Positions 8,673 through 60,900 of a stretch of 64,000 nt of DNA are shown piece after piece; positions within the stretch are counted from its first letter, which is position 1, and every line of letters begins with the position of its first letter. The notes under the pieces were generated by a model that saw only the letters and a program-made list of their open reading frames with translations, ran no database searches and had not been told where the DNA came from. Where the stretch lies: assembly GCA_019096195.1 (NCBI GenBank), contig JAGTXK010000022.1, positions 124,001-188,000 on the forward strand. Reading direction: 5' to 3'. Source of the DNA: Boletus sp. NGJ (lineage: Eukaryota; Basidiomycota; Agaricomycetes; Boletales; Boletaceae). Both the position numbers and the translations under genes were made by a program.

Positions 8673-8759
8673 CCCTTGTTGAGTCTGGGTGTAGAATAAA
8701 AGCAAAGGCTGCGTGTGCGATGGCACGTAATATAATCCACATATTTCGCTCCAAACCGG

Positions 8760-38041: not shown

Positions 38042-38505
38042 TGTGGGGACGATGCAAAAGATTGACTGTTTGGTCAGGAACTTTGGGATCCGAGTTTCGA
38101 ATGCGTGGTGGATTCAAGCTCTGAGAGTGCTCATCATTGTACGGCTCTAGAGTGGCGATAAGGCGAACAAGGGCCTGATGCCAAGTTAAGATCAAAATAT
38201 CGTCGTTCTTCGCGTGTCGCCTGATCACCATCCATCAAGTACTGGAGGGCCGTATTTGAGCCTGGGTCTCAGGATAGAGTGTGCAGGTGAACACATAACG
38301 AAAGCGGATGCAAATGGCTATGGCAGAGTTGCCGACATGTCATCCCGCTCAAGCGGCTGACGCCAATGACCATGGCTGCACAATCAATTGCGCCATTCCT
38401 TTCCACGTAGCATCATCTACACATCATGCGGCGCACAAGGACCTCGAAACATGCTGAGCGGATGACATTGATGGGACATGCCAGCTACTATGAAACCAAA
38501 AGGCT
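38042..38505. other. Intergenic, permease copy 2 promoter and PRPP synthetase 3' flank
   Basis: The right end of copy 2 and the 3' end of the next gene face the same way. The first 190 bp resemble the upstream region of permease copy 1; the rest shows nothing I can name. Confidence 0.35.
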
Positions 38506-39850
38506 CTAGTTTACTATATCCAAACCTCTGCCATCCGCCCAATCGCCAAATAACAAACTGATACTTTCTCCGTTGTGTGTTCTGCGAATACTCTCCGCGA
38601 TCGTAGAGGTGATATCTATCGTGATGAGCTTTGGACACTGCACTTGATGTTGTTTTTGAGGTGTCGTATTGGTAACCTAGCCTCGCCTCAATGCGTTGCA
38701 CGTATGAAGACCCACATAAATGTACATACCACAATGTGTTCTAATGGAAGGCTTTGCAGGTTTTCTATGTCCGCTTCCGCAAACAAACCTAGACCATCAA
38801 GTACTTAGAATCGCGATCGCATCAACGATAGGCACTCACCATGAGATATTAACGCGTGGATAGTCTTCGCACCCTTATCTTTCAACGTCCGGACCGCTAG
38901 CTCTAGCGTGTGTCCGGTATCAATCATATCATCCACCAAAATAGCAACCTATCAGCGCAAGCGCAATAAGGAAGCCTCACATATATGGCAACGCCGGAAT
39001 ATAACAGGGGACGTGGACAAACCTTGTCTCGTACATCGCCCACCAACAATTCCATTCGCTCAGGCGCATTCTCGGACTTGCCATCCCGCTTTTTATGAAT
39101 CAAGGCAAACTCGACGCCAAGTTTGTCTGCAATTGCCGTGACCCTAGGATGCTGTATATAAGGCCCACGCAGAACAGCCCAAGCCACCTTTGTGACGTAC
39201 CTTTTTGCGCCACCGGCATCAGGACTGACGATAATACTGTCATCCCACCCGTCAATGCGTGTCTTGATGTATGATATCATCAAAGGCTCCGAAAAGAGGT
39301 TGTCTACAGGTATGTCGAAGAAACCTTGTATCTGGCTCGCATGCAAATCCATCGTGATGACATGGTCGCAGCCCGCAACGGCCAACATGTTGGCGACAAG
39401 CTTGGCCGTGATCGGCGCGCGCGACTTGTCCTTCTTGTCCATACGCGCATAGGGAAAACAGGGGATAACGGCGGTGATACGACGTGCCGAGGCGGTCTTG
39501 CAGGCAGAGATGAGGACGAGAAGTTCCATCAGGTTATCGTTGACGTCGCGACACCCCGACTGGATGATGAACACATCTTCTTCGCGGATGGACTCGGCTA
39601 TTTTGACGTTGATCTCGCCGTTTGAAAATTTCTGGGGCATGCATGGAGTGAGGGATACTCCAAGCCTGTAGATGGGGGATTAACAGTCCGTGGACTGCAT
39701 GGCACCGCCATGGAAAGGTGCAGCTCACCGCTCGGCCACGGATTGGGCGAGCTCTGGGTGACTGTTGCCTGGCTGCTGCGTCAGTTGTGGGTCGAGGATG
39801 GCTGGATGAGACTTGCCCGCAAGTACTCGGATGGAGTTTCCGTGGTACAT
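38506..39850 (-). CDS. PRS: Ribose-phosphate pyrophosphokinase
   Basis: Makes PRPP from ribose 5-phosphate and ATP for purine, pyrimidine, His and Trp synthesis; cytosolic. Exon 1 from 39850 gives [20 protein letters not shown], then [57 protein letters not shown] and [39 protein letters not shown] is the metal/ATP region, followed by [11 protein letters not shown]. The PRPP-binding loop [14 protein letters not shown] is near 38945-38905. Later exons give [49 protein letters not shown] and the stop at 38506. The long exon plus about five short introns was assembled by family fit. It resembles the Prs2/3/4 group of yeast. Confidence 0.93.
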
Positions 39851-39943
39851 AGCTTCGATTACTTACGACCCCTGCACAACGAAAAAAAAAATTATGATCT
39901 TGATAGCTGATATTTGCCCATGACACAACAATGCCAAATATAA

Positions 39944-41737
39944 TTACACAGCCACTACAGGTCGGATCGTAACGTTTTCGACCACATATTCCGTATCCGC
40001 GTAGCCTAAAAGCTGAGGGATGCGTGCGCTAGGGAACAAGCCCGTCAAACGTGCGGCCATAGTCAAAATAACACCGACGCACCTGTTCAAACCCTTGATC
40101 CGCGAAATCTGCACAGAATTGTAATTCGCGAGTCCCCGTCCAACTTCCTTCACGTCCCACGCATCGCTCTCCTCCTCCCCCTCCTCCGTCGTATGAAAAT
40201 CATCATCCATAATAGTTTGTGCGTCCGATGCAAGGTCGTCAGCTATGGACGAAGACGAGCTTGATCGTGAGAGCGATGCGATCACGTTTTCGGGCTCTTG
40301 AGGATCGGGAAGTGTCGTCTTCCCTCCTGACATCCCCTCCGCAGGGCTCCGAACGAGGATACGCACAGCCTGTCCCGATGCGAACGATCCACGGACGCCA
40401 AGCACACCGGCTGGAAGTAACCGCCCTCCGGATTCTCGACGCGACAGCACCACATACGCCCCACTGTCGATGATGACACCCCCAGCGGGGTACAGAGTAT
40501 GACTCGTCCAGCCTTTCAAATCCCGCATCGGTACTGCAGAGGGCTTGAATACTGTGTGCGGTGGCCGTCGTAAACTCAACGTCGCATTGACACGCTCAAG
40601 GTCCATCGCCTGGAGTCTTGGCACTGGACTCGCCGTGCCTGACGCTGGGGCGAGCTGGAACCGAAGTTGGGTATAGTAATCGATGATATCCATGACCGCC
40701 GAGGGCTGTTTGCTGGACGTGATGACCGTCGTGACACCAGCACCCGTCGCGATTTCGGCCGCGATAAGCTTCGTTTCCATACCACCAGTACCTAGACTAG
40801 AGCCTAACGTAGACGTGCTTACTGCCACACAAATCAGAATCCAAGACATGCAAAATTGATGCGCGATAACGACCTTGAGCTCTGATGTCTGCGACAGACG
40901 TCACAACATCGATCTTTCTCGCCGCTGGATCTTTTCGCGGGTTCGCTGTGTATAGCCCGTCGACATCGGTGAGGAGGAAGAGATAATCCGCGTGGATCAT
41001 AGACGACGTGATCGCAGAAAGCGTGTCGTTGTCACCAAATTTTATTTCCTGCGTCACGTTCAACTAGCCAGCATCAAAAGAAATAAAGAACGCCAACGCA
41101 CGCTGACAGAGATCGTGTCATTTTCGTTCACGATGGGCACTACGCCCATACTCAAGAGCTCCCTGATCGTATGCACCGCATTCAAGTATCGCGTCCGCTG
41201 CCAGAAACGCGTCTCAGTCACGGGAACAACCAATCAAAATACACGAGAGTGCGCACGTCCGAAATATCACCCCGCGTGAGCAAAATCTGCGCGGTCCGCT
41301 GATCAAATTGACCAAACAAGTTATCCCAGAGCGCGATGAGTCGTCCTTGACCGATCGCCGAAAGTGCCTTTGCGCTACCCGGGTGAGCAAAACAAAAGGA
41401 AACGCGTGCCAAGAGCACAAGAGAGTGATGCGACTGACTTGTTTCTTGGAGAGGCTTTTGGGGCGTTGGGGAATCGCCATCGTGCGTAGACCGACGCCGA
41501 TGGCGCCCGAGCTGACGAGGACGACTTTGTGACCTAGGCTACGGAGGTGAACGACGGTCTCGACGACGGAGGACAAGATCGACAGGAGAGGTTGGTGCGT
41601 CTCTTCATGGACGATGGACGACGTGCCTACAGAGTAAACTGATTAGAAACGATGGAGAAATCCGATCCAACAATCAAATCACCGAGTTTGATGACTATCG
41701 TGTTGGAGAGTGTGCGTTGCTTGGATGGGCGCATCAT
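39944..41737 (-). CDS. PRO1: Glutamate 5-kinase with PUA domain
   Basis: First step of proline synthesis, phosphorylating glutamate; cytosolic. Starts [19 protein letters not shown], the kinase glycine loop, completed by splicing to TSSIV. Then [16 protein letters not shown] (about 41540-41495), [61 protein letters not shown] and [14 protein letters not shown], typical amino-acid kinase elements. [20 protein letters not shown] is the second nucleotide motif. From about 40470 the PUA-like domain follows: [34 protein letters not shown] Ser/Asp-rich insert (about 40320-40150) interrupts it, and it ends [17 protein letters not shown]. Fungal PRO1 often has the PUA domain; the acidic insert is longer than I expect. 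Two or more introns in the 5' half. Confidence 0.93.
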
Positions 41738-42245
41738 TGCTTCGTCTAATAGATTCCAGCTGGGTTGAAGCGCTGATTTACCGGGCTGTTGGAGATCAAC
41801 CATCGAGCATGTCAAGAAGTTTGATGTAGTTTGTATCTCAAGATTAGTTTGCCGCTTATCAGATGGCCGTTGACTAGTAGGGAGGGATTGATCCAACTAC
41901 TTGTAGTGCTAGTGATGGTCCGTCACGATATTGTACATGAACACTAACATACTCACTCCCCCTTATTCGACGGCGATGCGAAGGAATGCGCCAGGTGGAA
42001 ATCAGCCTCCTCCCAGGGGTCACAGCTGAACTCGATAGTTCGCCAAATGGTCACACCCCGGTATAACTTCCTTTAAAACGAACAATGCTTGCGAAGCCAG
42101 TTCCTTTAGGGGACTATGCGCGGGTCGCCGGTTTGCAATAATAGCTTTCCATCCCAAGCATTCCTGGGAAAAAGGAAAACATTGTATCAGTATTCAGAAT
42201 TCGTATAAACCAGGAACATGCCACCTGCCTTTGTACAGAGGCAGG
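41738..42245. other. No gene recognised
   Basis: About 500 bp upstream of PRO1. It should hold the PRO1 promoter; I see no TATA box and no further coding signal. Confidence 0.35.
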
Positions 42246-42743
42246 TCAGTTCATATCTCCCTCTCGAACCCGGCGTCGAGCGGGTAACATCCAGGTCTGC
42301 CAATCGCCCGTTTGCCGCATCATCCCTCGAGATGATTGGAAGACCCAAAAGGTCACCCGAGGTGGTTGGCTGGTTACAACGAGCCGCAATTCGCTCTTAC
42401 TCGCCACAAGAGCTTGGAGAAGCCTCCAGACATCTTTGCATTCATCAAGGGCGACTATAACCAGAGGCTCCTGACCCCACAGCCCTGCTACGCGAGATGT
42501 GAATCCACCGAGTTGCTCGGCGTTGTTCCGCACTGCACCACGTCGCGACACCTCGATGGAATGAATGACGGACGACCTACAAAGCAGGGTCAACATCATC
42601 AAACCATACGAAATGTGATCATACACTAAAACAGATTGACGGCCACGCCTGTATCTTTTCGCAAAGGATATGTCAGACCGGGTCAGACATATGAATAGTC
42701 CTTGTCTCGGGCACATAGTGCTGACATCGATCGGAGTATTCAA
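42246..42743 (-). pseudogene. Fragment of a NACHT-type NTPase
   Basis: One segment matches the Walker B region of the NACHT/NLR-like NTPases that are abundant in basidiomycetes: EPLVIVALDECKDVWRLLQA then SKSELRLVVTSQP, where the family usually has VIDALDEC and LVTSRP. Walker A and the repeat domain expected on the two sides are missing within the window. A stand-alone fragment with no start or partner domains. Confidence 0.6.
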
Positions 42744-43389
42744 TACCCCTCACAGAGCTTGAAAGTTTGTCGACTCGTAGATACTTGATACTTTGCTCGG
42801 AAACTGGCTCTTGTGGTCTCAGATTGGACTATGTCTTTCTGCTGTGATCCAGATGCTGAATGAACTCAGCAGATGTCTGTCGTGAAGAAGAAAATAAAAT
42901 CATCCTTTGCGCGATTCGAAAAAAGGTCGACAATCTCCGAGAGTGTGCCGTATCCTGTGCACAGAATGTCGCGAGTTGGTCTAACGGGGATGATACCCTC
43001 ATCGCAAACTGAGCTCCTGCAACCGAGATATGACGAGCACTCTCAAGTCGCAGGGTGAGGCTACATGTGACAACGAGGACAAGTTTCGCCGACGCGGACT
43101 GCTTGCCTGATCGTCACAACCCTGCAGAACCATGCTCAGCCACATCACAAATATTGTCAAACTCCACTAATTAATGCTCGATAAGGTAATAGCGAGCCGC
43201 GGCCCCCTTATCGACGCGGCAATACCCGCTACGACGTCGTTCGTGCTTGTCATGCGCGTCGAAGCACACGACCGTCGTCCGACGATATCGTCCCTCCTAC
43301 GGTAGCCGGATATATACTCTCTTACGATTCTATTTCCATTGATAGCAGAATATATTCAGTTCCAAAACTGAACCCCAGTTAACTTGAAG
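42744..43389. other. No gene recognised
   Basis: About 650 bp between the NACHT fragment and the Plavaka 3' end. Base composition changes from balanced to AT-rich near 43300, which may mark the left edge of the mobile region. No frame of interest. Confidence 0.4.
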
Positions 43390-43605
43390 TGAGCTTCTTG
43401 GTTGATGGTAAAGTAGGTGAAAGTGTCTTATTCATTTGGACCACCCAACTGGACTCATTCTGACATGTAAGCTTGTTTGTACAAGGTGTTCCATTACAGA
43501 GCACCATACCCCTTGTGCTCATATATGTCATTGTTGTTGTTGTTGCTCTTGTTGTTGCTCTTGTTGTTGCTCTTGTCATTGCTCTCATTGTTGCTCTCAT
43601 TGTTG

Positions 43606-43636
<31 letters not shown>

Positions 43637-46600
43637 CCTTGCCCTTATCCTCACCATCTTCCCCATTCTCGCCCTCACCACCTCCATCTCCCTCGTCATC
43701 TTCCTCATCCTCGTCCACTGTGACTTCCTTCTCTTCATCTTCAGAATCTTTGTCTTGATTGTCTTCTACTGTCCCTCCTTTCCTTTCCTTTTGAATAGAC
43801 CTGCCATCTGACTGAAGGAAGTCGTCCCAATCCTGTGTGACTGTGTGATTGACACCACCCCCATGATACCTCATAAACATGTTGCAATCAATGAAACTAT
43901 ACATAAAATTAGTCGTATTGATAGATTACAATTCCCATGTACTTACATATTCACATCGATTGATGCCCAATCCTCATTGCCTTCTGATTCTTGCTGTGCA
44001 ATTGAGGGCCCAACAAGCAGCTCACTTGTCCAACACTCTGAGAAACTTGGAATGAGGTGAGCTCCTCAGATTACTACATCTGGGTCCAGGAATCCAAATG
44101 CATCTATGTCATCCTCAGGTAGGAATCCGATGCAAGGGAGAGAGTGAGAGTGAAAAATGGAAGAGGTTGGAAGATGCCCAAACCAGTGGACAAATAAGAC
44201 ATTATTACACTGTGCTTCATCAGAATGTGGATGCTCGCCATAACACCATATGTTGACATGGAAAATTTTCAGTATGCATGTGTACCAGTATGGATGTTGA
44301 TTTGAGTCAGTCTCATGTGACAGCACCATGATGTCAGCATGTGTTCGAGGATTAATGACATCTTCATCACACTGTAGGTTGTAGATTGTGTAGTTGACAG
44401 ACAATGTCTTGTGTTCGTAAAATGAGTTCCATACGATGAGAAGATCATCTTGCACAGCATCAGTGAAGTGGACAATCTCCCCATCCCATTCTCCAGGGTA
44501 ATAAATGTGATGCAAGAGATGGTCTTTAGCTTGTCTATGAAGTCCTAAATGAACGTCAGTTCGACTTGAGACCATCAGATGGTAAGTGTCATATACCTTG
44601 GTTGCCCAATTGTCCTGCAGTGATCCGAGCCAGGCCGTGATGTTGGTAGGTGTCCATTCTGACTCAGCAATGGTGTAATGGTCAGATGGCGAAGATTGCC
44701 TTTGCTTCCCCTTCTTCTTCTTCCCAGTTCCCAGTGCCATGTTATTGCGTCCATCACTGGAATCCCCTTTCTCGAGCTCCTTGAGCATGAGTGCAATAAA
44801 TCACTGACATGCCTCGAGCTTGCTCATACTCGAGAGAGTTGTCGCCTTGGTCTTTGAGGTTCGTGTATAGCAGCACTTCAGATGCCAGTGCTCCAATTCA
44901 CCCTGGAACAAATTAGTACTTTATTTTGGATAAACGAGAGAAGCTTACTGGTTGTGTCAAGTAGTTGTCTGTAGTACCTCGATCTTGAATTGTATCTGCA
45001 TAATCCCCCAGTGCGTGATACTTGTATGTTTGCAAGTTCAGCTTCTTGCACTTGCGTTCGGTCGATTTCTGGGAAACTGGAGCACCACTCTTGCTTGCAA
45101 GTGCTGCAACTCGTCGGCCATGCGCAGCCATTTCTCGAGGGAGTTCAAGTGTAATATAAGCTTTGCAGGTTGTATTCAGAAACTTACGTACTGCTCGGCT
45201 GAGTGATTTCGTGGTCGCATTGAAGAAGTTGAGGGTATCGGTGGTGTGTAGACGTAGCTTGGCATAAGCATGCCATGTTGCGAGCTTGAAAAGGAGTTCT
45301 TGCACAATCGAGCCATGCAGATGGGGCAGGAGACCATCAAAAACGGGTATTGTGCACTTAGAAACCATGAGTTTCATGCGATTTTGTTCAACTTGAGACT
45401 CACCTGTAACAGGTCCTTGAAATCTCTTGCAGCCAATTGTTTCATAGATGATGTGTTTGTAACAAATCGCCGGATTGTTCCACGTCCAAACATTGGAATA
45501 GCATGATACCTAGGAATCAAGATTAGTTTGTAATAGCCCAGAGCAAAGAACATATCTTTTATCCATTTCCTGAATCATATCCCCCCCTTGTACGATTAGT
45601 ATCCATAGCAGATGTGTGAATATCCCCTTCCATGCACCACCCTCAAATTCATGTAGCTGATTAATCACTAGAAGATCAAAAAAGTTAGTTCTGAAATCCA
45701 GGAGGCGATTAGAGGATGTATTCTTAGAATGTCAGTGTATTTGCAGAATCATGGTGACGAAATGGACATACAATAGTAGGAACATATGACCCCTCGTCGA
45801 GTAGGGCCTGAACTTGCGCACCATCAATTCTGATGTCCCTTCTTGAAAATGAACTCGTGTGCTCTGTTGATCCGTTGTTGCTGGTGAACCGTATTGATCC
45901 GGGGTTGGCGCTTGTGGCGCTTCATATCACGGTCCATTCCCATCTTGCTAAGATCAGATTTTTCCACTAGACAACGAGGGCATGGCATCGTTCCAAGGAA
46001 CTTTATCCCGGATATCAATACCCTAGTCGACCATAATTTAGATAGACAGACATGATAACGAAATCGGGTACTTCTCTGGGTAATCTGCTGAATAAGAAAA
46101 AAAAACGGGGGTACACCTGCTAGGTAACTCCATCAGCACATCAAATAACGATGCCATTGTGATATGCATCCATGAACTTATTGTCAAGTAGTAGATTCCA
46201 TATCGACTGGAACAATTCCCACTTGCAGTGCATAAGAATGTCCTGCTGTGCCGAATTTCCACAGATCTCACAGTAGATATCCTAAAAGTTGTTGGGAAGC
46301 TGATATAAAGCTAAGTATGAGTATAGAAAAGCAAGAGTAAATACATACCTTCGGAATATATGCCAGATGGTGACATGCAGCTGCTGAGGGTTTGCTGTGC
46401 AAATATTTGGATTGGTTGCCGAACGAGAGATAAAAGGGCCACATTGAGTTGTTGCCAAACTGGGTCACCTGCATGGAATCAGACCAGATCATAATGGATG
46501 TGACTATGCATTCCATGTCATCATCAGGTTTGTGTGGGAGTGTGTTGATCTCTTCATGAGCATGTAGCATCTTAGGTAAAGAATATGCCTCCAAGAAAAC

Positions 46601-47780
46601 ATCAACAGTTTTGTCTTCATGAACTTTCCATTGCTGACTGAAGGGTGTCATATTGAACAACAACCCAGTTTCACTCTGAAAAGTGTTAGTGATTATATTA
46701 ACAATATTGTGGTGCCAAATGCCATTGATCTTCATCCAATGTGCATTGAATTCAGAGGGAGATGGCACATTGTGCCTTGGAAGCTTGATCTCTACAGTAG
46801 ATTTGCACCAACCATAATCCGAGTGGAACAGGTTTGCTTTTGAGTCAAGGAAGTTATCCAGCTGCTTGGTCTCATGAGTGAATGAGAATTTTTTGAGTTC
46901 TTCTGTCTTGTAATGTGGATTTTGCTGAAGTCATGCAAAGCAATTGGCCTCAATGCCAGACTTGAGATATGAACCAGAGTAATTCCATGCTAGATAGATG
47001 CCAGATGTTGAATTTGAAAAAGGTGCAAAAATCTCATCTGGAGAGAGGTGAGCATGGCTAGGAATGCCAAGAAAATCTCCTCTAGCATCTCCCTCAATAG
47101 AAGGACCATTTTGAAAATCCAGAGCATCACAGGCATTCTCTAGACTGTGCGGTGGATTATAGGTTGGCTTGCTAGGAGAGATGCAATACAAGCCCAAGCT
47201 GTCTGGCTCAGTAGTAAAAGGAACAGAATGAGGGGGAGATGAGGTGTGAGGTGTTTCATTTTCAGAAGTACTTGAAGGACAAGGGGAAACACAGGATTGA
47301 CCAGTGTGTAGGGCACATTGTTGATGTGCTGAGAGCAGCATGTGTGCAAGATGGGTTGCACTGCCTGGCAGATAGTCCTTGAAATGAGGTGGCATGCAAA
47401 TTCACCTACCTGATCGGCTGAATATAGCAGGTGCTGACTCCATGGGTGGCGGAAGCTATTCGGAAATGAAAGTATATCATAGTACTTGAGAAAATAGAGA
47501 CTTACTTCATGATTGCTGGCAAAATCCTCATGTTCAAAAGTGTCATCTTGAGAATGAACACTTTGTTCTGCTATCAGAGACTCGGGAGCATGAGAGATAC
47601 TCAGAGAAGAGGAAAGGAACCTTTTTCCTTCGTGATTACCTGACTCTGAGTGACTTGGCTTGTGCTTGTGCTCATAGACAGCAGTAGATAGTGCAATGTT
47701 GTCAGTGCACAGTGCACCATGTGCCAAGAGCTGCTTGTGTGAGCCAAAAGACACAGTGCAACCTAGGCAGATAGACATGT
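43390..47780 (-). mobile_element. Plavaka-type DNA transposon, transposase gene
   Basis: Large multi-exon transposase of the Plavaka group, a fungal DNA transposon family distantly tied to CACTA/KDZ-like elements. N-terminus from 47778: MSICLGCTVSFGSHKQLLAH, a degenerate C2H2 finger. Then a Ser/Pro-rich linker, AWNYSGSYLKSGIEANCFA near 46990-46930, and the catalytic region: MIWSDSMQVTQFGNNSMWPF, YLSFGNQSKYLHSKPSAAAC, FFSYSADYPEK, FLGTMPCPRCLVEKSDLSKM. From about 45660 come EFEGGAWKGIF, FGRGTIRRFV, FDGLLPHLHGSIVQELLFKL, ATWHAYAKLRLHTTDTLNFF and KLNLQTYKYHALGDYADTIQ. The C-terminal part ends in an acidic Gly/Glu/Asn repeat region. Exons are separated by short introns; I saw no certain break but did not resolve all junctions. 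Terminal inverted repeats were not identified. Confidence 0.82.
43528..43645. repeat. TTGTTGCTC and CTCACC tandem tracts in transposase C-terminus
   Basis: The plus strand shows TTG repeats, then TTGTTGCTC / ATTGTTGCTCTC units, then at least six CTCACC units. On the coding (minus) strand these give a Gly-Glu run followed by Asn-Asn-Glu-Ser and Asn-Lys-Ser-Asn units and an Asn run. The length is likely variable between strains. Confidence 0.85.
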
Positions 47781-48020
47781 TAGAGTAGAAATGATGAAAA
47801 ATGCACTCACCATTTTATAGAGTTGCAACAAGTGAGTAGGCTCAGGTGCATTTGTGTTAATTCACCTAGAAAATGTGGTCAGAATGCATATTTGTACATT
47901 GAACTTACCTTTTGACTTGTCTCATGATTCAAGACCTGGAGGTGTGATGTGACTGTCACATACTATATTAGTTGATGTGGGCGGGACTTTAAAGCTTCAC
48001 ACTTTGATCCACTTATCATC
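47781..48020. promoter_or_regulatory. Divergent region between Plavaka transposase and DUF6698 gene
   Basis: 240 bp between the two divergent starts. It contains GTGATGTGACTGTCACAT near 47946-47963, a nearly perfect inverted repeat that could bind a dimeric protein such as the transposase. Confidence 0.45.
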
Positions 48021-50160
48021 ATGTCTGATAATCGCAACACTCATTCTTATTTCCCCCACCTCTAATGATGATCGTGAATGGATGCGGTTTGTTGATAGAT
48101 GAGCCAGATCCAGGCAAATTGCAAGACAGACACAGATAGCCTTGACGATGCCGAGTCTGTGATAGTCAGGTATGTGAGATAAGCTCTAATCTGCCTTGAG
48201 GTTGTTATCTATAGCTCTAAAATGTCATAGCTCTAAAATGTCACACAAAGGCAATAAGCAGTAGGCACATATTTTCATGAGATGTGTGAGATTTGATTTC
48301 TCCATTAGAACCAATAATGTATCTTCTGAGTGAAAGCGATGCTTGGGAGCTGCACAGTGGATCTCACATGCACTTCGACATGTACTGCAACCTCGAGGAG
48401 ACTATACGCGTATCCCAGATCGTTAAGGATGCTGAACAAAATGAAGATGACAACTCGAACGATGAAAACAACATCCACCTCAAGACCATATACAAAAGGA
48501 TTGTAGAAACACTGTGAGTACTCTATATGTGCATATATGCACCTCTATTGCGCCTCTTGGACTCATTATGACCTATAGGGAATGCAAATACAATCCTGCA
48601 CCATATGAGCATCTACCAATACCTACAGTAGGAGACCCCTTATCTCATGGATCTCATTTGCAACAAGGATCACCAGACGCGGGTTGCAGCTCATTCGTGA
48701 GGTAAGTAGTGCCTTCCATTACAGCCCCATGACAACCTCACAGTTGGTCAGATGCAGAATACTATCAACTGTACATGTTCTGATGATGCAAGTCATCTCT
48801 GCCCCGTGATCAGGTCTTATGTGGTGCCTGACCCTGAGAGGAAGGCACTTGATCCTCCCAGTACAGCCCAGTACAACCAAGGACAGACTTGGTTTCAACC
48901 ATTCTGAGCTGGCCCACCTTCTGTGTACCCATCTGCCATCTAGAAGGGATGTTGGATGATCCAGTTGAGTAAGCACCAATCCAAGCACTGAACATTCAAT
49001 ATATGCTAACAGTACATCATAACAGGACCAGGAAGAGAATCACATGTGGGAATATCAAGGTTACTGCATAGAAAAACCCAGCATTCCTTTATGAGGGGGA
49101 CATCACAGGGAAGAACTTCAACCCTGAGGACGTCGCTTTCGGTTTCATGCGCGGATACCTGGTTGAACAAGTAAGTAATATATAGTCCTTGTACAGTTTG
49201 CTCATTCTCATATAGGTTATGAAACATATCTTCACGTCACCATCGTCAGCCCTCTCCACTTTGAAGATCCACAACACATGCTCGAGCAATAGTAAACTCC
49301 ATAACATGAGGCAGGTCAAAGCCAATCATATTGCATATGCTGCAACACATGTGAGTCTTTCATTTCTTATGACTCTACTAGTATTAACCTATACATGATT
49401 AGGCTCATTTTAGCATCTGTTCACAAGCCAAGTTCGTGGACCTCGATGTGGACTTCAAGCTACCTGACTTTTACTACAAGATTGCACAACATTTATTGTA
49501 GATGAAATCTCTGAAGATTGGTCCAATGACCTCTATGCGCACTACAATAAGTGAGTCAGCTATTCTCAATGAATGGCTGCTGACAATATTGTGCTAGGCT
49601 CTTGTTCGGAAATCCATGTGGGCTCAGATGTGCTATGGATGATGCTGATGAGCCCTCTGATGAAGATGACATCACAATTATGAAGAAACAGATGGCCAAC
49701 AAGGCTAGTGATTTGTCCTCTCGGTTTAGAATGTCCACAGCAGTCGAGGAGCCCATGTTATCTGCTCACCACATGGATTTCAACATGGATGACTTGTATG
49801 ACAATCCCAGAGCGGTCATGGAAGGTGTTTCTGCAGCTCATCATGCCAATGCTACACCCTCTCGATCCAGATTGTCCACAGCAGTTGTGGCAACCACACA
49901 TGTGACTAGCGACACAGAGGTTGATGCAGACCGTGCATGACAATGCCAGTCAAGACCTGGATTGTGCGCAGGAACCCACCACCCCCAGTTCTTGTAAACA
50001 TATCTAAGAAGCCTTGGGAGCCATACAGGTTCTGCATGGCACAACACTGCCCTGGTGGCACATACCCCCAAGGCAAAGTCAAAGGTGATTGAGTACAATG
50101 TCGACAATGACAACAGCCCATTGACTGACATTGAGAAAGATGCAAGTGCCAGCAAGAAAT
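48021..50160 (+). CDS. DUF6698 family protein, probably interrupted
   Basis: Basidiomycete protein family of unknown function that is common in repeat-rich regions. From ATG 48021 (MSDNRNTHSYFP) several short exons follow. Parts that fit the family: a helical N-terminus (LLSESDAWELHSGSHMHFD), FLYEGDITGKNFNPEDVAFG, FMRGYLVEQVMKHIFTSPSS, NHIAYAATHAHFSICSQAKF, DVDFKLPDFYYKIAQHLL, EISEDWSNDLYAHYNKL and LLFGNPCGLRCAMDDAD. The family usually has IAYAAVQ and a Trp-rich end near WYEHYNNLLFG. After about 49930 the tail includes stops. A one-base shift after HLL near 49500 is not explained by a clean intron, so this copy may be inactive. AT-rich like the Plavaka part beside it. Confidence 0.6.
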
Positions 50161-50851
50161 GAAAGAAGCATAGCAAGCCATCTGTGCTGGTCAGGAAGTC
50201 CAATCACCCACACAAGTAACTCCAATTGCAGTTTTCAGCCTGAGCTCCAAGTCTTCACTATGTTTTGCACCTGCTTTCCATTCCATTTGCGACATTCTGG
50301 ACTCCTATGCCTCGTTTTGATCATCCCCATTCCCCTCACACCACACTATTACCCCATCATCATCGCCAGTTTCTTGATAGGCTCATCATACAACACTGTC
50401 GGGTAGATTCATGCAGTGTTGATCATATATGTATAGATACATTCCAGCGGAACATCAAGAAATAGATCAGTTGTCATACAATATATTACAACTATGTAAT
50501 CTGAGTGAATATTGTGGCTGTTGAATGATATTGAGCCTCAGCATGACAACATTTACAATGAAAGTCATTGATTCTGCAGCAGTTGACCAAAAACTGAGTT
50601 TTTGCGTATTTGGATATATTCATACTAAGACTTTGATGGGCACACTGAGATCGATGGGTATTATATCCAAATATATTTGTGTCTCGAGATTTGACAAATT
50701 TTGTGATGCAATAGAAAACGAACACCAATCACGCACTCACTTATGGTTGGTTGGAAGTATTTGTTATTAGTCAGTGGCTACCTCAATTATTTAGAGAGTT
50801 CCTTTGCTGCATTCCATTGTTCCCCATTGTTTACTTTCTTCCTCAACATAG
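50161..50851. other. Spacer with no recognised gene
   Basis: AT-rich spacer between the DUF6698 tail and the first recognised kinase exon. It must hold the kinase gene's promoter and possibly a first exon near 50740-50840, since the kinase frame starts right after an acceptor (CAACATAG at about 50851). Confidence 0.35.
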
Positions 50852-52972
50852 GTGGACTCGTATCTAACCCTACACAGGGGGCCAGACAGTTTGACACACC
50901 AGGCCATGGACATTCACATCCACCAAGATCTGAGCAAGAATATTGTGAATTACGATCAGGATTCTCTTCTTTTCTTTCCTTACATCTCCATCCCTTCTAT
51001 TCTTCTGGGTGATGGTCAGACTACCTGCACAGCTATTGACGACATCTACACCATGATGCAGAATGTCAAATTGTACGACACCAATTCCTCCAAGTGGAAT
51101 ATAGAGGAACCATCTTGTGCTCAGCCAGCAGAACAAATAATACCAGACTTTTTCAATCAAGTAAGTGAATGAACTGTATGACCATGAGAAGATCATTCAT
51201 CATCAAGAAATAGGTTCTTTCAGCTGTATATGCCAGGACTAAGGCATATGGTTGCCAGACAGCCTGGCACCGACACTCAGCAACACTAATTGAAGGCATT
51301 CGCAAACCAGACATCATCCTTGTTCCCACCATGGTACCTGAATGAGTCACCTTCCAAGATATCTACAGTTATTGCAAGCTGAAATACACATTCAAGAAAG
51401 GCCTTAATTCTCAATCATTGTTTCAGCTAACTAAGATCACTGGCTTCATCACAGCGGCCCAAGTCAATTGCCAATTTTTTGTTGCTTTGTCCCTTTGTGG
51501 CAGAACCTTGACACTGGCCTTCTTCGCCCAGGGCTGCACTGTTTTCTCCAAAGCACTCAACATTGACCAGCATCCTCGCAAATTTCTAACCATTCTCATC
51601 AGAATCTCTTTGGCCAATTGCACTTGGAATGGATTTGACAACTACCTGCAAGTTGGCACGAAACCTCACACCTACATCCTTCATGAACTGGGAGATTTCT
51701 TTGATGTGGAGGTTCAAGATCTGTTGCTCTTCGCAGCTAATGCCATGCATGGGAGGGGAATAAAGGTATCTCTTTGCAAAGCAAGGTTGGGAAGCTATAG
51801 CGGGGAGGAACTATGATGTATCCTTAAATTGTCTTGGCTGCCAGTATGCTGCACCACTAATATAGAGATTAGTCAGTTAATGAAGACATATGAGTCAAAT
51901 GACCTTTCAGAGGAGGAGGAGAAGTTGTTTGGAGAAATGGACAAATATTCTGTCTTTCACAATTCCATAAAGCCATTCAATCAAGCTCAAGATGAAGGCA
52001 TGATGAATTGGGACTACCAACGACATTTGCCTGGCATTTCGATAATCCTGGATGTATTCCAACCACTAGCCAACAACCCTAAACCAAATTATCTTCTTAG
52101 AGAAGAAGGATACTACAGTCCAGTTCACGAGCCAAACATGCGCTTTGACACCACTATCAATATCCTAGAAAGGTTTGATGTCCCAGTGTGGGATGATAAT
52201 AATCAAGTCCTTCAGATGCTTGTCCATAAAAAAGAAGGAAAGAAGTGGGCTCCAATGCCATTGTATTAGGAACCTCGTGAATATATAATGGTTTTGTCCT
52301 ACACTTGTGGAACTTCCCTGATATGGTTTTCATGTCGACATGAATTTGTGAATGGTATGATGGGCGCTCTTGTAGGTAAGAGTGACTGCATTCAATCTAT
52401 GTCTAGAGTGGCTGATTGTTTTTATTTCATAGGTCACTTCAATGGCTTTAGAAAGGATATCTTACACTGTGATGTTAGCGATGGCAATGTGTTGTATGAG
52501 GTTGAAGGCACTGCACCTGAACACATTGTTCCTGACTGGCCTAAAGATGAAGGCCAGTATCCCAAATGTGCAGGCATGTTAGGAGATTGGGGGTATGCTG
52601 AGGACCTTTGTGCGGCCCCAGCAGAGAGGGTAGGATGTCTTATGGTGAGTATGCTGCAATTGAGACTTGGATTCTATCTGACGTACTGGTTACATAGGGT
52701 ACTATTCCATTCATGGCCAGTAATCTATTGTCGGTGTCAGGTATACAGGGCAAGACATGTCACCAGGTCTGCCATGACCTGGAATCCCTTTTCTGGGTCA
52801 TTTGGATTACCTGCATCTGTTATGAATCCTTTTGGAAACAATCCACAAGGCTCGACAGCTCGCAGGCTATACTGGTCCTGGCTTAATGAATAAGGTTAGG
52901 AGTCATCATCCATACTATGCCAACCCTACAATGACCAGAGTGGTCAAGGCAATGAGTTGTTGGAGCAGAATA
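50852..52972 (+). CDS. FunK1-type fungal protein kinase
   Basis: Member of the FunK1 family, kinase-like proteins expanded in Agaricomycetes. The N-terminal domain has DIHIHQDLSKNIVNYDQDSL, TAIDDIYTMMQNVKLYDTN and KAYGCQTAWHRHSATLIEGI. The N-lobe follows (about 51420-51820). The catalytic loop is ILHCDVSDGNVLYE near 52460-52500, with the Asp expected in H-x-D-x-S-x2-N. The C-lobe reads GMLGDWGYAEDLCAAPAERV, VYRARHVTRSAMTWNPFSGS in one frame and GLMNKVRSHHPYYANPTMTR near the end, stop near 52972. In most family members the metal motif is DWD or DWG; here DWG. At least one in-frame TGA (about 51345) lies in the N-terminal part and would need an intron. AT-rich; lies directly beside the LTR of the next element. 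Confidence 0.68.
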
Positions 52973-52979
52973 TAAATGG

Positions 52980-53294
52980 ATTAGACTGGGAATTCCAGTC
53001 ATCAAAGTGCTACCTTATATATGTACAGGGATGGTGCACAGACCAAGCTGTGCATGTGATAAATTACTACATATAGTAAGATGGAGATTAAAGGGGCTGT
53101 ATGAGAAGAGCGGAAATTAAAAGGTTGTGGATCACATGAGATATGATGTCATCTGACATCATAGGTTCTAGACCATGTTATGTGATTGTTCCCACAGTCA
53201 CATGCACAGTTACGTGACTTGAGAAGAAAAAGGTTGATGAAGTGAAAAAGTAAGCATTGAAGTGAAAAGTTTGAAATTATTGTATATTATAACA
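52980..53294 (-). repeat. 3' LTR of the minus-strand Ty3-type element
   Basis: Next to the purine tract AAAAAGGGGG (minus strand, about 53307-53298) the sequence TGTTATAATATAC starts an LTR-like stretch running left. It has a TATA box (ATATATAAGG, minus strand, near 53010-53020). The far edge is estimated; no second copy lies in the window to compare. Confidence 0.55.
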
Positions 53295-56200
53295 CTACCC
53301 CCTTTTTAGGACTCGAATTCCAGGCAAGTTGTAGTTTTCTTGTTTTCAGTGAAGTTTTCATAAGGAGTGAATAAAGAAGCAAATGCAGTGATAGATAGTC
53401 CTCAAAGTTTGCGTGGAGTGGAGGGATATAAATGATGGAAATCTTTAACTGCATCCGGTGCAGTGATGATGATGTCTTCAGATTCTCAAGTACAATCCAT
53501 TTCATCATAACCCTTCCAATGCACTAAATATTCTAGTTTGCCTTTCTTCCATCTAGAAGTGGCAATGAAGTCAACTTTGAACTGTTCTTCCCTTTCTTCA
53601 TCAATCTCAATCGCATCTGGTCGAGATTTAGGCTGTCCAGGCAGCATGTCTCTATAAGGTTTAACATGAGAGATGTTCACAGTAGGATGGATGTGAACAG
53701 AATTGGGGAGTTTAAGTATTACAGCGTTAGGAAGGACTTGGGTGATCATATAAGGTCCTATCCATTTTTGGGTCAATTTCTTTGCCATATACGAAAGTTT
53801 TAATTTATTGGTTGACAGCCAGACTTGCTGACCAATAGAATATTCAGGTGCTGTTGATCGTTTTTTATTGGAAGAGGTGATCATCCTCTTGCATGTCGCT
53901 TCTAGCACTTCTTCTATCTCCTTATGGTTGCAACCGATCTCTTCCACGAAGCCTGTGAGATTCCCTTTGAGACCCATGCAAGGTGCATAGTTTCTAGTGA
54001 CTTTAAAGGGTATTTCTCCTGTGGCTGTAGTCATGGTATTGTTATGCAAGAATTGCACAAGTTTGATCCAATCTACCCATTTGCATTGCTTTTTTCCAGC
54101 ATAAGTGCAGAGATATTGCTCAAGATCTCTGTTTACACGCTCTGTTTGTCCGTCTGTTTGCGGATGATATGCTGTAGAAATCTTTTGTTTAATCCCAAGT
54201 AACTTGCAAAGCTCTTGGATAAATGCAGACACAAATTGGGGTCCTCAATTGGATACGAGAGTTGAGGGGAGTCCATGTATAGACCAGACATGGTCTCAGA
54301 ATAGAATAGCTAAGTCCTTCGATAAACATGTATCATATGTAGGTATAAATACAACTTCTTTAGAAAATTGATCAACGATAACACAGATGGCTGTAAACAA
54401 ATGTGAAGATGGTAAACCTGTTATGAAGTCTACTAATAAATCTTCCTATGGTCTTTTTGCCGCAGGTAAAGGAATAATTTTACCTGCTGGTGCTTTTTGC
54501 TTACCTTTCATGAGGGTGCACACTTGGCAGTGATCTACATATTCTTTGATGTCCTTTGTGACTCCTGGCCACAAGAAATATCTAGAGAGTGTATGTATAG
54601 TTTTGGAATGTCCTCCGTGCCCAGTGATGGGTAAGTCATGACATAAAGTTATGAGTTCTGTATGTAAGGATTCTGGAATGAAGATTTTGTCTTTTTCATT
54701 TTTGAATGTATTTAGATCTGAGTAAAAAAGGAAATTATTGATAGCATCGATGTTATATTTTTTAGATTCTTTTTGTATTTTTGTAAAGAAATTGGAAGAT
54801 AAAGAAATATTGTTTATAAAGATAGAGGGAGGAAGAACAGTAACATTTTGGTTGTGATCAATCACAGCGTCACTGTGATCAGGTCATCTGGATAGAGCAT
54901 CAGCTCTTCCATTTGATGATCCAGGTTTGTAAACAAAAAAAGTAATTGAACTCTTGAAGTAAAGCGTGCCAGCATGCTTGTCAACCACTAAGTGTTTGTG
55001 GTTTCTTCCAATATTCAAGGTTCTTGTGGTCGGTCCAGATTTCGAATCTTTCACGACCGATAAGATAATGATGCCACTCTTCCAGTGCCTGAATTACTGC
55101 AAGTAATTCTTTATCATAAATGGGATAATTGTGCTCTGCACTATCGAAAGAATGTGAAATAAAGGCGATAGATCACCAATTACTGTCTTTGCATAATATT
55201 GAGAGCACTGCTCCCGTTGTGATGTCTGATGCATCGGTTTCCATGCGTACTTCTTGATCACAGTTAGGATATGCGAGAAGTGGTGCTTCCGTGAATTTTC
55301 TTTTTAATGATTTGAAAGCTTGCTGTTGATTGGGTCCTCCATTTGAATGGAACGTCTTTTTTGGTAAGATCATTCAAGGGACATGCAATTTCTGCGAAGC
55401 CTTCTATGAATCTCCTATAATAATTACAGAGTCTGAGGAATCCTGGAGTTGTTTTAGTCTAGTAGGTACCGGCCAATCCATAACCCCTGCTACTTTCTTT
55501 GACTGCATCTCTACCCTCTTTTTAGATACAACCATTCCTAGGAAGTCTACTTTGTCCACAGAGAAGGTACACTTTTCAGGTTTTACGTAAAGGTCATTCT
55601 TGCATAAGCAATGTAGAACTTCCTTTACAACTTCTTCATGCTGTTCTTTTGACTTCCCAGAAGTAAATATCATATAATTGTTGATATAGATAACTACTAC
55701 TACATACATGTCATTAAAGATATCGTTCATCATCATTTGGAAGGTGGGGGGAGAGTTTGTGAGTCCAAAATACATTACTGTAGGTTCGTAGGCACCAATA
55801 GGCATTACAAACACTGCTTTCCATTCATCACCTTTTTTGATGTGTACGTTGTTGTATCCCCATCGGAGATCCATGGCCGTAAACATGTCCACATTCTTGA
55901 GCCTGTCAATTAATTGTGGAATTAAAGGGAGAGGATAGGAATTCTGATAGTTCCTTCATTTAAATATCGGTAATCCATTACTATTTGTTTTTTACCATCC
56001 TTTTTTGGAATAAAGAAGACCAGAGATGTTTGTGAGGATTTAGAAGGTTTGATATATCCCTTCTTGACTTCTTTCTTAATGAACACCCTGACTTCTTCCA
56101 TTTCAATGTCTGAAAGGGGAATGACACGTCCTTTCTTTGGAGAGAAATCTTCCTTGAGATCTATGGCATGATCCCAATGCTTCCTTAAGGGTATTCATTG

Positions 56201-57087
56201 AGATTCTTATTCAGAGAAAACATCTAAAAACTTGTGATAAGTTAGTGGAACTTTTTCTTTTAGTCCTTCTTTAATGGTACATAAATTAACTGGAGAATAC
56301 GAAGAAGATGGTCCGAGTCCCATAACTTTACAGTAGGAGGTACAGAGAGGAAAGGAAATTGTCTGTTTTACCCAATTGATATCGGAATTATGGCGGTAAA
56401 GCCAGTCATACCTGATGATCATTTGGTGGGTTCCTAATTTAGATATATAGGCATCAATGACTTCGTAATGTCCTTGTACTTCCACAATTAATGTTACTGC
56501 ATGATGAATCGGGCCGATAGCTCCTTCCGATCCATCTGCATTATATATTTTTATCAGGTTTCCAATGTCATAAAAAGGGATGCCATGACGGTTAACATAG
56601 TCTTGGTCAATAAAAGTATGCAATGCTCCCAAATCCAAGAGGGATTTGAACTGGTAATGTGACCACTGTCTGTTAACGTTGCATGACATTACAGTTTCAA
56701 GTAAGAATTCACCACTGTATGATAATATCGATGCTTGGTTCAATGTGACTTTAGTGAGTTTATATATAGATGATATTTTTTGTTGTTTGACAAGGGAATT
56801 AAGCACACTTAAATCCGGTGCCATGCTTGAATGAGACACCCTTGTGGAATGTATTGATAATTTATGTAAGACAGAAGAGAGATCTGAGATAGGAAAGTCT
56901 GTATCTGTACAATTTGTAAAAGAAGAAGAAGAGCATTGTTCTTGCTGCTGAGTTCCCTCAACACTCATTGGTGTTGTCCATTCAAAGCCTCGGCTGCTCA
57001 TGCCTTGGCTTCCACCTCGAACTTATCTCTGTAATGCGCTTCGGCTTCCTTCAAAATGTATGACCTTGATGCTACACTTGCTACTGC
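53294..57087 (-). mobile_element. Ty3-type LTR retrotransposon (chromovirus), AT-rich, broken
   Basis: Fossil of the Ty3/gypsy (Metaviridae-like) group, with parts in chromovirus order on the minus strand. Gag C-terminal remnant (to 57002), aspartic protease region (57001-56207, with LLDLGALHTFID), reverse transcriptase (about 56200-55400), RNase H (about 55370-55000), integrase with zinc-binding start and HPQTDGQTERVNRDLEQYLC (54865-53600), and a C-terminal chromodomain (LEYLVHWKGYD). The upstream gag portion is missing because the next element is inserted there. It is broken, with several interruptions. Age cannot be measured from LTRs in this window; it is older than the element inserted in it. 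Confidence 0.85.
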
Positions 57088-57990
57088 TGTAGTGACAGGA
57101 GGAGAGGGGATGAAACGAATTAGACGTTTTCTCCTTTATTTACGTAGTTAGCTAACACTTCGACGATCCCACGAACGCCTTACGTAGTTACCATTATACC
57201 TAGACCTTACGTCTAGACCATACGCCACACACTAGTCAGCCTACGTCACAACCCTATACCCATAGAACAGGCTAGACCCCACTACGTCACTCTACGTCAT
57301 AGAGAACATTCCAGTAGGTTCCACGACCGGCCCTAAGCTGGTCCGTGCTCACGAGTAGGTAGTATATAAGTAGCGTCACAACGCTTGTATTAGCTAGTCT
57401 TGGAATTCCTCTTCTCTCGCTCGGATTACGCCCTTCGCGTCCCGTGTGATATTGAGGTCTTTTCCTTTCAAATTCCAAGACTATTCCTCGTCCCCGGGCT
57501 CTTCGCCTCCGGACACTTCCTCCCTTCTCCACCCCTACTGTTTTGCCTAGTCGGAGCAAACTTTTTGCCCCCTAGTACCGCTCCCGCTTCTCTGACTCTC
57601 GACACTCCCCGCATCTGACCCTCAGAGGAACCGAGGGCCTCCGTTAGCGATAAGCGTAATACCGGACCTATATGGCGGTTGCTAGCGCGGAACTCCCCCT
57701 CAGCTGCAGGGAACGAAACAAGGAGTTAGGGTCTCGTTTCTCACTCCCTCCATCCACTTCCGAACGTGTGGGCTCGTCGCCGCCGTTCACCCCTATACCG
57801 GACCTCAGGTTTGAGGAACCCGCTCGTACACGTGACGTACGCGAGTAAAGCACTCGGCGAAACGCTTGCATATACGCTCGTCCGGCGTCACAAATAAGGA
57901 TAAAGTTGCTGTCGGGCATAGTGCACTAGCCCCACTTCTCTGGTGGTTGCCGACCAGAGCGTACGCTGGTGCTACGATAGTGGACCCGGG
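57088..57990 (+). repeat. 5' LTR of the GC-rich Ty3-type element
   Basis: The segment starts at the junction with the older element and carries a TATA box (TATATAAGTA near 57363) with a likely transcription start region downstream. GATGAAACGAATT near 57109 matches TAATGAAACGAACT at the window's right end, the start of the 3' copy. The right edge is an estimate. Confidence 0.55.
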
Positions 57991-60900
57991 TTCGCGTGAT
58001 TACCCGTAACGTCACGTAGGTGTGATAACCCCATTTATCTCGACTTTGGGGCGTGCACCACCTCTCTGTAGTAAGAGAGTTATCCTCCGGTTCCTATCGC
58101 TCGACTCTCCCATTTCCTGACGGTGCGCGGTCTTTCCCGCCGTTATTTTTTGCAGATCTGCCTTCAGACACCCCCCGCACGTACAACGTGTTCAGACGCC
58201 GCTACGTCTGGGCGCACCCCGACTACTCATTTGTAGTCCACACCAGTCCTCACCACCTACTCCACGCACGACCACCGCCACCGAACAATCACCCGACTTG
58301 CTCAGCTCGCCGGACTTACGACGAGATGAGCCACGCACCCCTCCCAACAGCCGTACTCGCGCCCCGCGTCCGCCGCCCCGGCCCCGGGCAGCTTCAGGGA
58401 CCTGGCCAACCGGGCGGCAGCCCAGGGCCTGCCTACCCTCCAGTTGGTCCAGCCTACCCCACCAGCAATGCCTCGATCCCCCCTACCGCAGGCCCCTCAG
58501 TCCCCTACCCGCCAAGAGGACACAGCGCAGTACCTCCTGCACCAATCCGTCCTGCGCTACAACCTGTGGCGCCAAGCGTTCGCGGCCGACGCCGCAGCGG
58601 CTGGACCGCCCCCTCCAATCGAGCTGCCGAGAGTGGACCCTCCCGCAGCCGCACACGCAGTCCCCTCCCCGAGCTCACGGTATCCGAGGTCCAGCATCCC
58701 TTCTCCAGGGAGGACTCCCCGGCTGGTCCCACCGCAGGGCCCAGCTCCCTCGCGCCCGCTCCCCTCGCCCCCGCAGCCGAGCTCGCCCTCCCACTCGAGT
58801 TCACCTGGGATCCCGCGGCCCGCCGCACGTGGCTTTCCCCCCGACCTCCCCGAGGATAGGGAAGAGCCTGGCCGCTAAACCCGAGCACTACGACGGGAAC
58901 AAGGAGAAGTTCGTGCAATGGTGGAGGACCGTCACCCTCTACCTGAACGGCTTCGAGAGCATGCCGACCGACCGGCAGAAAAATCCTCATCACCCTGTCG
59001 TACATGCGAGGTGACAATGCCGCTGGGCGGTTCTCAGACCTTCTGGTGGAAGGTGACGCATACGCAGCCGTCAACTTCGAGTTTTTCGTGGAAAAGCTCA
59101 AGAAGACGTTCCAACCCGCCGGTCTCGTTCGACTGGCTGAACAGAAAGCTGTTCTCCCTTCGCCAAGGGAAGGACACCGTGGAGGACTACTTCACGCGAC
59201 TGTATCCAGCTGGCCATCGAGGCCAAGTTCGACGTGAGGATTAACGGGCGGACGATCGTCAACCAGATTCGACACCAAGCCCGGAACGAGCTGGTTGAGT
59301 ACGTCGAGAGGTACAAGCCAGACCTCATCGACTCCACCGACGTCCGTGAGTGGGAGACCGCCTCTGGTGCGGGCAGAGGAGGTACTCGGCGCCATCGCGG
59401 AGCGCAAGAGAACCTCCAACGTCTACGCCACCGGCCCCACCTATAACCCCCGTTTCATCCCGCGTCCCCGCTCCTACGCACCGCCCGCCGCTCCCCCTGC
59501 CTACTCGCCCGCCCCCCTCGGCGCCCGCTACGCGCCCGCACCCTCAGCAAACCGGGACCTTCCCCGGACAAGGCGCTCCTATGGAGCTAGACAAGGCACG
59601 CGCAGCTGGACTGTGCCGAAAATGCAGGAAACCCTGGCCCTGCGCCGACCACCCGCCCCGCCCTCGCCCTCAAGCGAGGAGCATAACGGTAAACGGCCAG
59701 GAGGTTTCCCCGAGATGTTTGCGACAATCAGGAGCATGATGGACTCCGCAGAGGCTCCCCAGGAGGAGCAAGTAGTATACGCGCCCGATGTACAAAGCGA
59801 CTCGGGTTTTCAGTCTGTACAGTAGATACCAGTCGACCTGCTGTACCACCACCTAAGTCATTGCGCAATAACATGTTCTCCGTTTTAAGCATTGACGAGA
59901 CTGAAGACGAAAGTAAGGAGCGCGTAAACCTACCGGGCACTCCGCCCGTAAAACAAGTAACCATCATGCCGCGAAAGGTAAAATTCGCGCCGTCCGTAAA
60001 GCGAGACGACGGCCCGAATGATGCGGACACCATCCCTCGCAAACATCCCAAGGAGGCACGAAAGGAAGAGATGTCCTCTCGTTCCTGGCTGAACACGTTG
60101 GACCCCTGGTCTATACGTTGGATGAAGGCACAAGTGGAGAACACGGATGTTGAGCGTAGCATCCACCACTTGAAGTCCTTCGTCCACGACAGCAGGACGA
60201 TCGAAGTATCTCGGGACCTCGTGCAGGATCTCCGAAAACTTTCCGACGAAGATGCGTACTGGGTCCTCCACGACCTACAGCACGCTCCGAAATTCCGGAA
60301 AGCATCCCCCCGATCGACGAAAGCGAAACTCGCTGGAAATCCCCGTCAAAGTGACCTTCGCGAACCGACAGACCGCCAACGTCAAGGCACTGATCGACTC
60401 GGGCTGCACCGGGTCATCCATCCACGAGAACTTCGTAGCCGAAAAGGGGCTAAAAACACACTCCCTCCCCCGTCCCCTCACCGTCTACAACGCCGACGGC
60501 ACGCCAAATGCCGGAGGCAAGGTAGAAAAATTCGTGATCCTAGAACTCCAGGTGAACGACCACAAGGAACAATTGGCCCTCGCAGTAACCAACCTCGGGC
60601 CTAACACCATATTCCTTGGACACGACTGGCTGAAATCACACAACCCAGCCATCAACTGGAAGACAGGGAGAATCTCCTTCCGATGTAAAGGGGATCACGT
60701 ACCAACAACGTAGACGAGGAGGAGGACGAGATGGACGTAGATTACCAGCCTTCCCAAGGCGACCGCTTGTTCAAACTCGATGTCGTAGAGTACCTGAGCA
60801 ATCGAAACGTCGCCACCGAGGTAGCCATTAAAGACTACGTCCAGAAAAAGAAAAAGACCTTCGAGGAAGCCGCCCCGAAGTACGTCCACGAGTATCAAGG

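Follow-up and report, generated by a model that had tools for sequence, protein, structure and literature searches.

A two-gene Plavaka transposon carrying DUF6698, with a FunK1 kinase gene as an outside neighbour, in Boletus sp. NGJ

In a 64,000 bp stretch of the Boletus sp. NGJ genome (contig C112, positions 124001-188000; the window), a Plavaka transposase gene, a gene of the DUF6698 family and a FunK1 kinase gene are found next to each other, and a preliminary description proposed that they move together as one Plavaka element with host-type genes as cargo. The locus raises the question which of these genes belong to the mobile unit. Our joint reading, to which we give a probability of roughly 0.85, is that the window contains a two-gene Plavaka transposon, that DUF6698 is a helper encoded by the element and that FunK1 is a neighbour outside it. 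Every locus described below comes from the same genome (32.8 Mb, 141 contigs), and positions without a contig name are those of the window.

A cut-and-paste DNA transposon of the Plavaka type, with two genes, occupies 43143-50708. Its ends are of the form CATCAC...GTGATG and are almost identical to each other (17/19 bases). A diverged copy on C114 showed 64-80% identity to the window in nine pieces, and this similarity was confined to 43143-50708; the C114 copy is flanked by a CA/CA duplication of its own (plus strand). Between the two ends, the transposase gene (minus strand) and the DUF6698 gene (plus strand) lie head to head. The right end (50690-50708) sits between DUF6698 and FunK1, the DUF6698 family match stopping 1.35 kb inside it and the FunK1 family match starting 626 bp past it. 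At 43 kb the GC content drops from about 50% on the left to 41-47% in the block, so that the AT-richness reported earlier was recovered, and the compositional edge placed near 43.3 kb corresponds to the left end of the element. The AT-rich stretch extends to 57 kb, across a separate Ty3/gypsy-like fragment.

Pfam searches agreed with the preliminary description on the identity and strand of all three genes. On the minus strand, 46268-46768 matched the Plavaka core (PF18759; E 3.6e-13; 49.9 bits, cut-off 26.3). DUF6698 (PF20414; E 3.9e-40) was found on the plus strand, in a gene of about 48.3-50.2 kb that was spliced by eye before the match. FunK1 (PF17667) was matched in two parts (E 2.1e-10 and 2.2e-17; single-frame match E 5.9e-9), also on the plus strand, in a gene covering about 50.85-52.85 kb. 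A Pfam scan of four transposase ORFs showed none of the KDZ type: one matched Plavaka and three gave no match. The transposase contains an N-terminal, zinc-finger-like CxxC...H...C motif near 47.7 kb. Of 11 regions scanned, six have the same motif next to the transposase (window, both C114 copies, C94, C133 and C65 279-287 kb), and a few unrelated frames match the pattern too. In genomic reading, apparent stops occur within the family-matched stretches of all three window genes, including an in-frame stop in the main transposase exon and an in-frame stop plus a frame break in DUF6698; introns are possible at each.

Whole-genome family searches gave at least 131 Plavaka, 116 DUF6698 and 41 FunK1 matches, which were merged into 68, 50 and 25 loci, respectively. 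Transposases of the DUF6698-paired kind, collected by searches with two transposase exons, were termed group 1 (42 merged loci); the 50 PF18759 loci remaining after group 1 was taken out were termed group 2, a group defined by remainder and not by a tree. Within 5 kb, a group-1 transposase was present at 23 of the 50 DUF6698 loci, 22 of them in divergent orientation (uniform expectation 0.74; p 1e-12 for 22/23 at 1/4), and within 10 kb at 28 (25 divergent). Seen from the transposase, 22 of 42 group-1 loci had DUF6698 within 5 kb, all divergent, and 27 within 10 kb (26 divergent), compared to 3 of 50 group-2 loci within 10 kb, none divergent (Fisher p 1.4e-9).

The ends showed the same association. 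The end motif CATCASMAAAWDTK was found 61 times genome-wide, versus 4 times for the reversed control; seven of these matches read CATCACCAAAATTG, four of which lie by position in transposase exons (C21, C37, C121 and C107). Inward-facing end pairs within 15 kb occurred seven times in the genome and contained DUF6698 in all cases, and FunK1, TET_JBP and DUF6532 in none. Five of the seven enclosed DUF6698 and a whole group-1 match, and are an independent test of the enclosure of both genes; the remaining two (C107, C121) begin within a transposase exon. An inward end 1.05-1.74 kb 3′ of DUF6698 was present at 13 of the 50 loci, compared to 2, 1 and 0 of 50 for three control placements. Nine two-ended elements were characterized (Table 1), each with a single group-1 transposase and a single DUF6698 locus, and six of them showed a 2-bp duplication (p 4e-6 at 1/16 each). 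The C101 and C109 elements have their first 40 left-end bases in common and were found at different sites with different duplications. The transposase/DUF6698 layout was thus shown to recur in separate families with duplications of their own, and the common ends, the duplications and the recurrence at many loci support that the two genes form one mobile unit. DUF6698 has the behaviour of a gene that resides in the element and not of an occasional capture, which makes its earlier labelling as host-type cargo doubtful.

Table 1. Features of the window and complete Plavaka elements elsewhere in the genome.
Feature	Location	Strand	Basis or remark
Complete Plavaka element (two-ended, group 1), 7566 bp, two divergent genes inside inverted ends	window 43143-50708		Ends, flanks, C114 similarity limits; duplication CA
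Left terminal inverted repeat CATCACAAATATTGTCAAA	window 43143-43161	+	17/19 bases equal to right one
Right terminal inverted repeat, inward reading CATCACAAAATTTGTCAAA	window 50690-50708	-	Also recovered by genome-wide end pattern
Target-site duplication, left copy CA, 2 bp	window 43141-43142		
Target-site duplication, right copy CA, 2 bp	window 50709-50710		
Plavaka transposase gene, several exons, limits approximate	window 43497-47778	-	Pfam, exon similarity to other loci
DUF6698 gene, several exons, limits approximate	window 48290-50160	+	Pfam, frames, spliced alignment
FunK1 kinase gene, outside element, left limit approximate	window 50852-52817	+	Pfam; C119 similarity stops at 52817
Ty3/gypsy-like retroelement fragment, separate from element, right limit approximate	window 52818-57100	-	Reverse transcriptase, Tf2-1 SH3, chromodomain
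Two-ended group-1 element	C114 495082-509903		Duplication CA (plus strand)
Two-ended group-1 element	C114 268779-276307		Duplication GC (plus strand)
Two-ended group-1 element	C109 604490-612351		Duplication TA (plus strand)
Two-ended group-1 element	C101 642065-652582		Duplication GA (plus strand)
Two-ended group-1 element	C94 123009-130238		Duplication TA (plus strand)
Two-ended group-1 element	C65 279610-287106		Without 2-bp duplication
Two-ended group-1 element	C17 144342-152775		Without 2-bp duplication
Two-ended group-1 element	C133 347561-355074		Without 2-bp duplication
Group-2 element, CATCA ends around both genes	C31 147671-154217		16/16 bases, CA/CA
Group-2 element, CATCA ends around both genes	C114 303591-310489		15/16 bases, TG/TG

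FunK1 showed no comparable pattern. Only 2 of its 25 loci had a group-1 transposase within 10 kb, namely the window and its duplicate on C119, which are one site. One further locus (C133 230709) had a group-2 transposase within 5 kb, in tandem orientation. An inward end at the 1.05-1.74 kb placement was found at 0 of the 25 loci; an outward-facing end lay upstream of two, whose positions are those of the window and C119. No FunK1 match was found inside the nine two-ended elements. FunK1 as cargo was therefore rejected on the basis of the right end and the lack of recurrence, and of the proposed three-gene unit, with recurrence between inverted ends and duplications, the transposase/DUF6698 part was upheld within this genome and the FunK1 part was not. 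Elsewhere, two opposite-orientation FunK1 pairs were observed on C22 (61634-65936 and 420255-424889), a contig with no Plavaka match.

The two proteins of the element also diverge together. At the six loci where both were read, transposase and DUF6698 identities correlated (r 0.907), and 1 of 720 permutations was as high, namely the true pairing itself; the window DUF6698 was represented by the C119 copy in this comparison. Three intron positions of DUF6698 recurred in at least 10 of 25 loci aligned by the splicing script, other alignments being noisier. Of 16 DUF6698 copies used for dN/dS, 12 were without a stop in the aligned domain, as read by a script that itself avoids stops, and 17 of 120 pairs passed the filter (>100 codons, pN <0.35). 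Seven deeper pairs with a computable ratio showed dN/dS of 0.07-0.27, and seven were saturated at synonymous sites (pS 0.76-0.91 versus pN 0.21-0.32). Among the deeper pairs, C94/C33 (0.17) consists of two divergently paired copies, and C71b/C74 (0.07) of one with a divergent and one with a convergent neighbour. These ratios indicate purifying selection on DUF6698 between families.

A second family, DUF6532 (54 matches, 27 loci), was found in a corresponding position next to group 2. Fifteen of its 27 loci had a group-2 transposase within 5 kb, 15/15 divergent (expected 0.5), on contigs C31, C114, C133, C48, C6, C7, C21, C39, C82, C112, C122 and C81; the loci C81 1693187 and C122 among these resemble copies of one stretch. 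One DUF6532 locus (C81) was near a group-1 transposase, and DUF6698 was near group 1 at 23 loci and near group 2 at one. Because the two families sort to different groups (Fisher p 6e-9), the choice of partner is specific. In group 2, 17 of 50 loci had DUF6532 within 10 kb and 33 did not. Four group-2 loci were read for ends; two showed CATCA ends around both genes (Table 1), and the loci on C133 and C6 yielded none that were convincing. A TGT..ACA pair at C133 373975-377603 (12 bp, without duplication) was rejected as possible chance. Because CATCA ends are also found in the DUF6532-paired group, groups 1 and 2 are not equivalent to PlavakaA and PlavakaB of Kojima 2025 (PMC12730594). DUF6532 loci with no transposase of their own group within 10 kb were seen on C107, C114 (555576), C124, C133 (406019), C3, C4, C41 and C97.

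There are only hints that the two partner families are related. PF20149 was matched in the same region by two of eight DUF6698 members, each time below the curated cut-off (E 1.6e-4 and 0.0068); DUF6698 was matched by none of four DUF6532 members, and a profile comparison of the families was negative (E 0.91). Both families seem to supply the second protein of Plavaka elements. That they are two branches of one transposon-encoded partner family, each matched to its own Plavaka group in an obligate and previously undescribed two-protein transposition system, is a tentative proposal, for which we see slightly less than even odds. If it is true, many mushroom genes annotated as DUF6698 or DUF6532 are transposon genes and not host genes.

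Several observations weigh against the two-gene reading with a helper. Within 10 kb, 22 of 50 DUF6698 loci lacked a group-1 transposase and 15 of 42 group-1 loci lacked DUF6698; some of the unpaired loci are near contig ends and others are unexplained. Candidates for lone DUF6698 and DUF6532 loci are broken elements, contig ends, undetected transposases and host-resident copies. The pairing counts include duplicated sites (the window and C119), and all loci come from a single genome. Three of the nine two-ended elements (C65, C17 and C133) have no 2-bp duplication, and enclosure in the nine is a description and not an independent test, because they were mostly found around known pairs. Few DUF6698 pairs survived the dN/dS filter, and, among the deeper pairs with a computable ratio, those other than the two named involve C42, C24 and C32, copies that have no group-1 transposase closer than 10 kb. 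Selection was relaxed in the three most recent pairs (dN/dS 0.95, 0.73 and 0.55); in our interpretation the overall pattern fits selection during the spread of the element and release after insertion. Finally, we infer the helper role of DUF6698 indirectly, because a model of part of the protein gave no usable fold (mean pLDDT 40, pTM 0.27) and PDB profile searches gave no solved relative (best E 0.6 and 0.06).

As a mechanism, the stretch between the two genes may act as a two-way promoter, and the transposase would act and cut at the element ends. DUF6698 would be a helper matched to this transposase, most likely one that joins the transposition complex by binding either the transposase or the ends, in a role like that of TNPA. 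CACTA/EnSpm elements encode two proteins, TNPA and TNPD, and have subterminal repeats to which the second protein binds. The window element resembles them in encoding two proteins, one of which is the transposase, and some copies here show repeated motifs near both ends; it differs in its CATCAC ends and 2-bp duplication, compared to CACTA ends and a 3-bp duplication. No kinship between DUF6698 and TNPA was found, with no special test aimed at it. Plavaka and EnSpm have been placed together in a clade, CMCT (PMC12730594).

Repeated 8-mers in the last 400 bases on both sides were in excess over 200 shuffles in seven elements. No shuffle was as high for the window, C109, C94 and both C114 copies, and the excess was weaker in C65 (2/200) and C133 (7/200). 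The signal is confounded in the window, where it arises from a microsatellite at 43.5-43.7 kb, and in C114 495082, where it arises from a GAAGAG run, and in C65 the ends do not exceed the element's own middle (24 versus 27). A clear end-repeat excess was found in C109, C94 and C114 268779-276307; C109 contains 11 copies of two motifs, all within its outer 420 bases. A separate 236-bp inverted-repeat element with CATCAGGAAAACTG ends, possibly a non-autonomous relative, is nested in a C114 Plavaka copy (C114:509013-509248), and CATCAGGAAAACTG also occurs at C109:604241, just outside the C109 element.

The main rival to the helper role keeps DUF6698 inside the element and gives it an anti-silencing function, countering DNA methylation or chromatin silencing. 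Such a function has been proposed for TET/JBP, which some Plavaka elements have as an extra gene (PMC12730594). The window/C119 differences (334 transitions versus 25 transversions, many at CpG) are a sign of methylation-linked decay. However, DUF6698 matched no dioxygenase family in Pfam, and group-specific pairing together with co-divergence better fits a physical partner of the transposase than a general anti-silencer, even if co-inheritance could by itself produce the co-divergence, so we regard anti-silencing as unlikely, if still a serious contender. TET/JBP itself was tried as a hidden third gene and rejected: of 23 matches genome-wide, none was in the nine two-ended elements, which differ in this from TET/JBP-bearing KDZ and Plavaka elements while resembling them as fungal DNA transposons plus an extra gene. 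TET_JBP loci were within 10 kb of group 1 in 4 of 23 cases (0.63 expected) and of group 2 in 0 of 23; those at C37:103360 and C42:27654 lie 2-3 kb from DUF6698 loci.

It is very improbable that DUF6698 is a host family of repeat-rich regions and its pairing a by-product of repeat clustering. The unpaired DUF6698 loci may be of this kind in some cases, but the fixed orientation, the fixed distance to an inward end and the co-divergence speak against it, as does the lack of any such pattern for FunK1, and the five enclosed pairs recovered by the genome-wide end pattern contradict it. Still less credible is joint movement of transposase, DUF6698 and FunK1 as a cargo-bearing Plavaka element: all three are together at C119 also, but C119 is the same insertion duplicated, the right end (50708) separates FunK1 from the element, and none of the nine two-ended elements contains FunK1.

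Regarding the two-gene transposon, the window element resembles PlavakaB as characterized in the available part of PMC12730594 (CATCA..TGATG ends, 2-3 bp duplications) in its PF18759 core, ends and 2-bp duplication. It differs in that the elements here carry DUF6698, or DUF6532 in group 2, as a divergent partner; neither family is named in that part of the source, which names TET/JBP as extra gene. Nuwa/Harbinger elements, with a transposase and a Myb/SANT protein (same source), are alike in their two-gene layout with an accessory protein and have a different transposase and partner family. In the annotation of Marasmius oreades (PMC8290104), autonomous Plavaka elements were defined by the pfam18759 domain alone. 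In the literature searched, no mention of DUF6698 and no pairing of Plavaka with DUF6698 or DUF6532 was found, and DUF6532 was found once, as a list item (PMC8955403).

With the present reading, two uncharacterised families gain a home and a testable role as the second gene of Plavaka DNA transposons, and Plavaka shifts from a one-gene definition to a two-gene system with group-specific partners. Both families are expanded in mushroom genomes. Agaricomycete gene counts, expansion studies and lineage-specific gene lists that include them would partly count transposons.

The duplicate of the window locus lies on C119. Window 37884-52817 aligns to C119:180210-196096, with zero mismatches at 37884-46940 and a single length difference, in a microsatellite. 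Past 46940, the copies differ by 5.4% within the element and by 7.0% across FunK1; 90 of the transitions are at CpG with agreeing neighbours, compared to only 102 CpG positions among the 2375 unchanged C. This appears to mark the edge of a conversion or duplication within the transposase gene and to reflect methylation-like decay. Two independent insertions on C112 and C119 were considered and rejected, and one insertion was counted, because the left flank and the CA/CA site are shared. Window 21-30 kb has no copy in C119, so that the C119 stretch arose either by segmental duplication or as a conversion tract. In the main reading, FunK1 was copied with the element once, when the stretch as a whole was duplicated, and the window FunK1 was then broken by a retroelement. 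FunK1 is interrupted at 52817/8 by the Ty3/gypsy-like fragment, which starts at 52818, where C119 similarity ends; an LTR pair was looked for in the fragment and none was found. In C119, an insertion of about 1.03 kb (184130-185161), with the short repeat TGAC at its edges, lies within DUF6698 opposite window 48828-48832.

Outside the element, the window contains a direct duplication of about 2.6 kb (30425-33060 versus 35425-38029; 84% identity) and an inverted repeat of about 380 bp (3088-3468 versus 8714-9097; 96% identity). A GC-rich block at 58163-64000, close to the contig end, has copies on C124 (81%; window 58163-63997) and C65 (92%; window 61112-64000).

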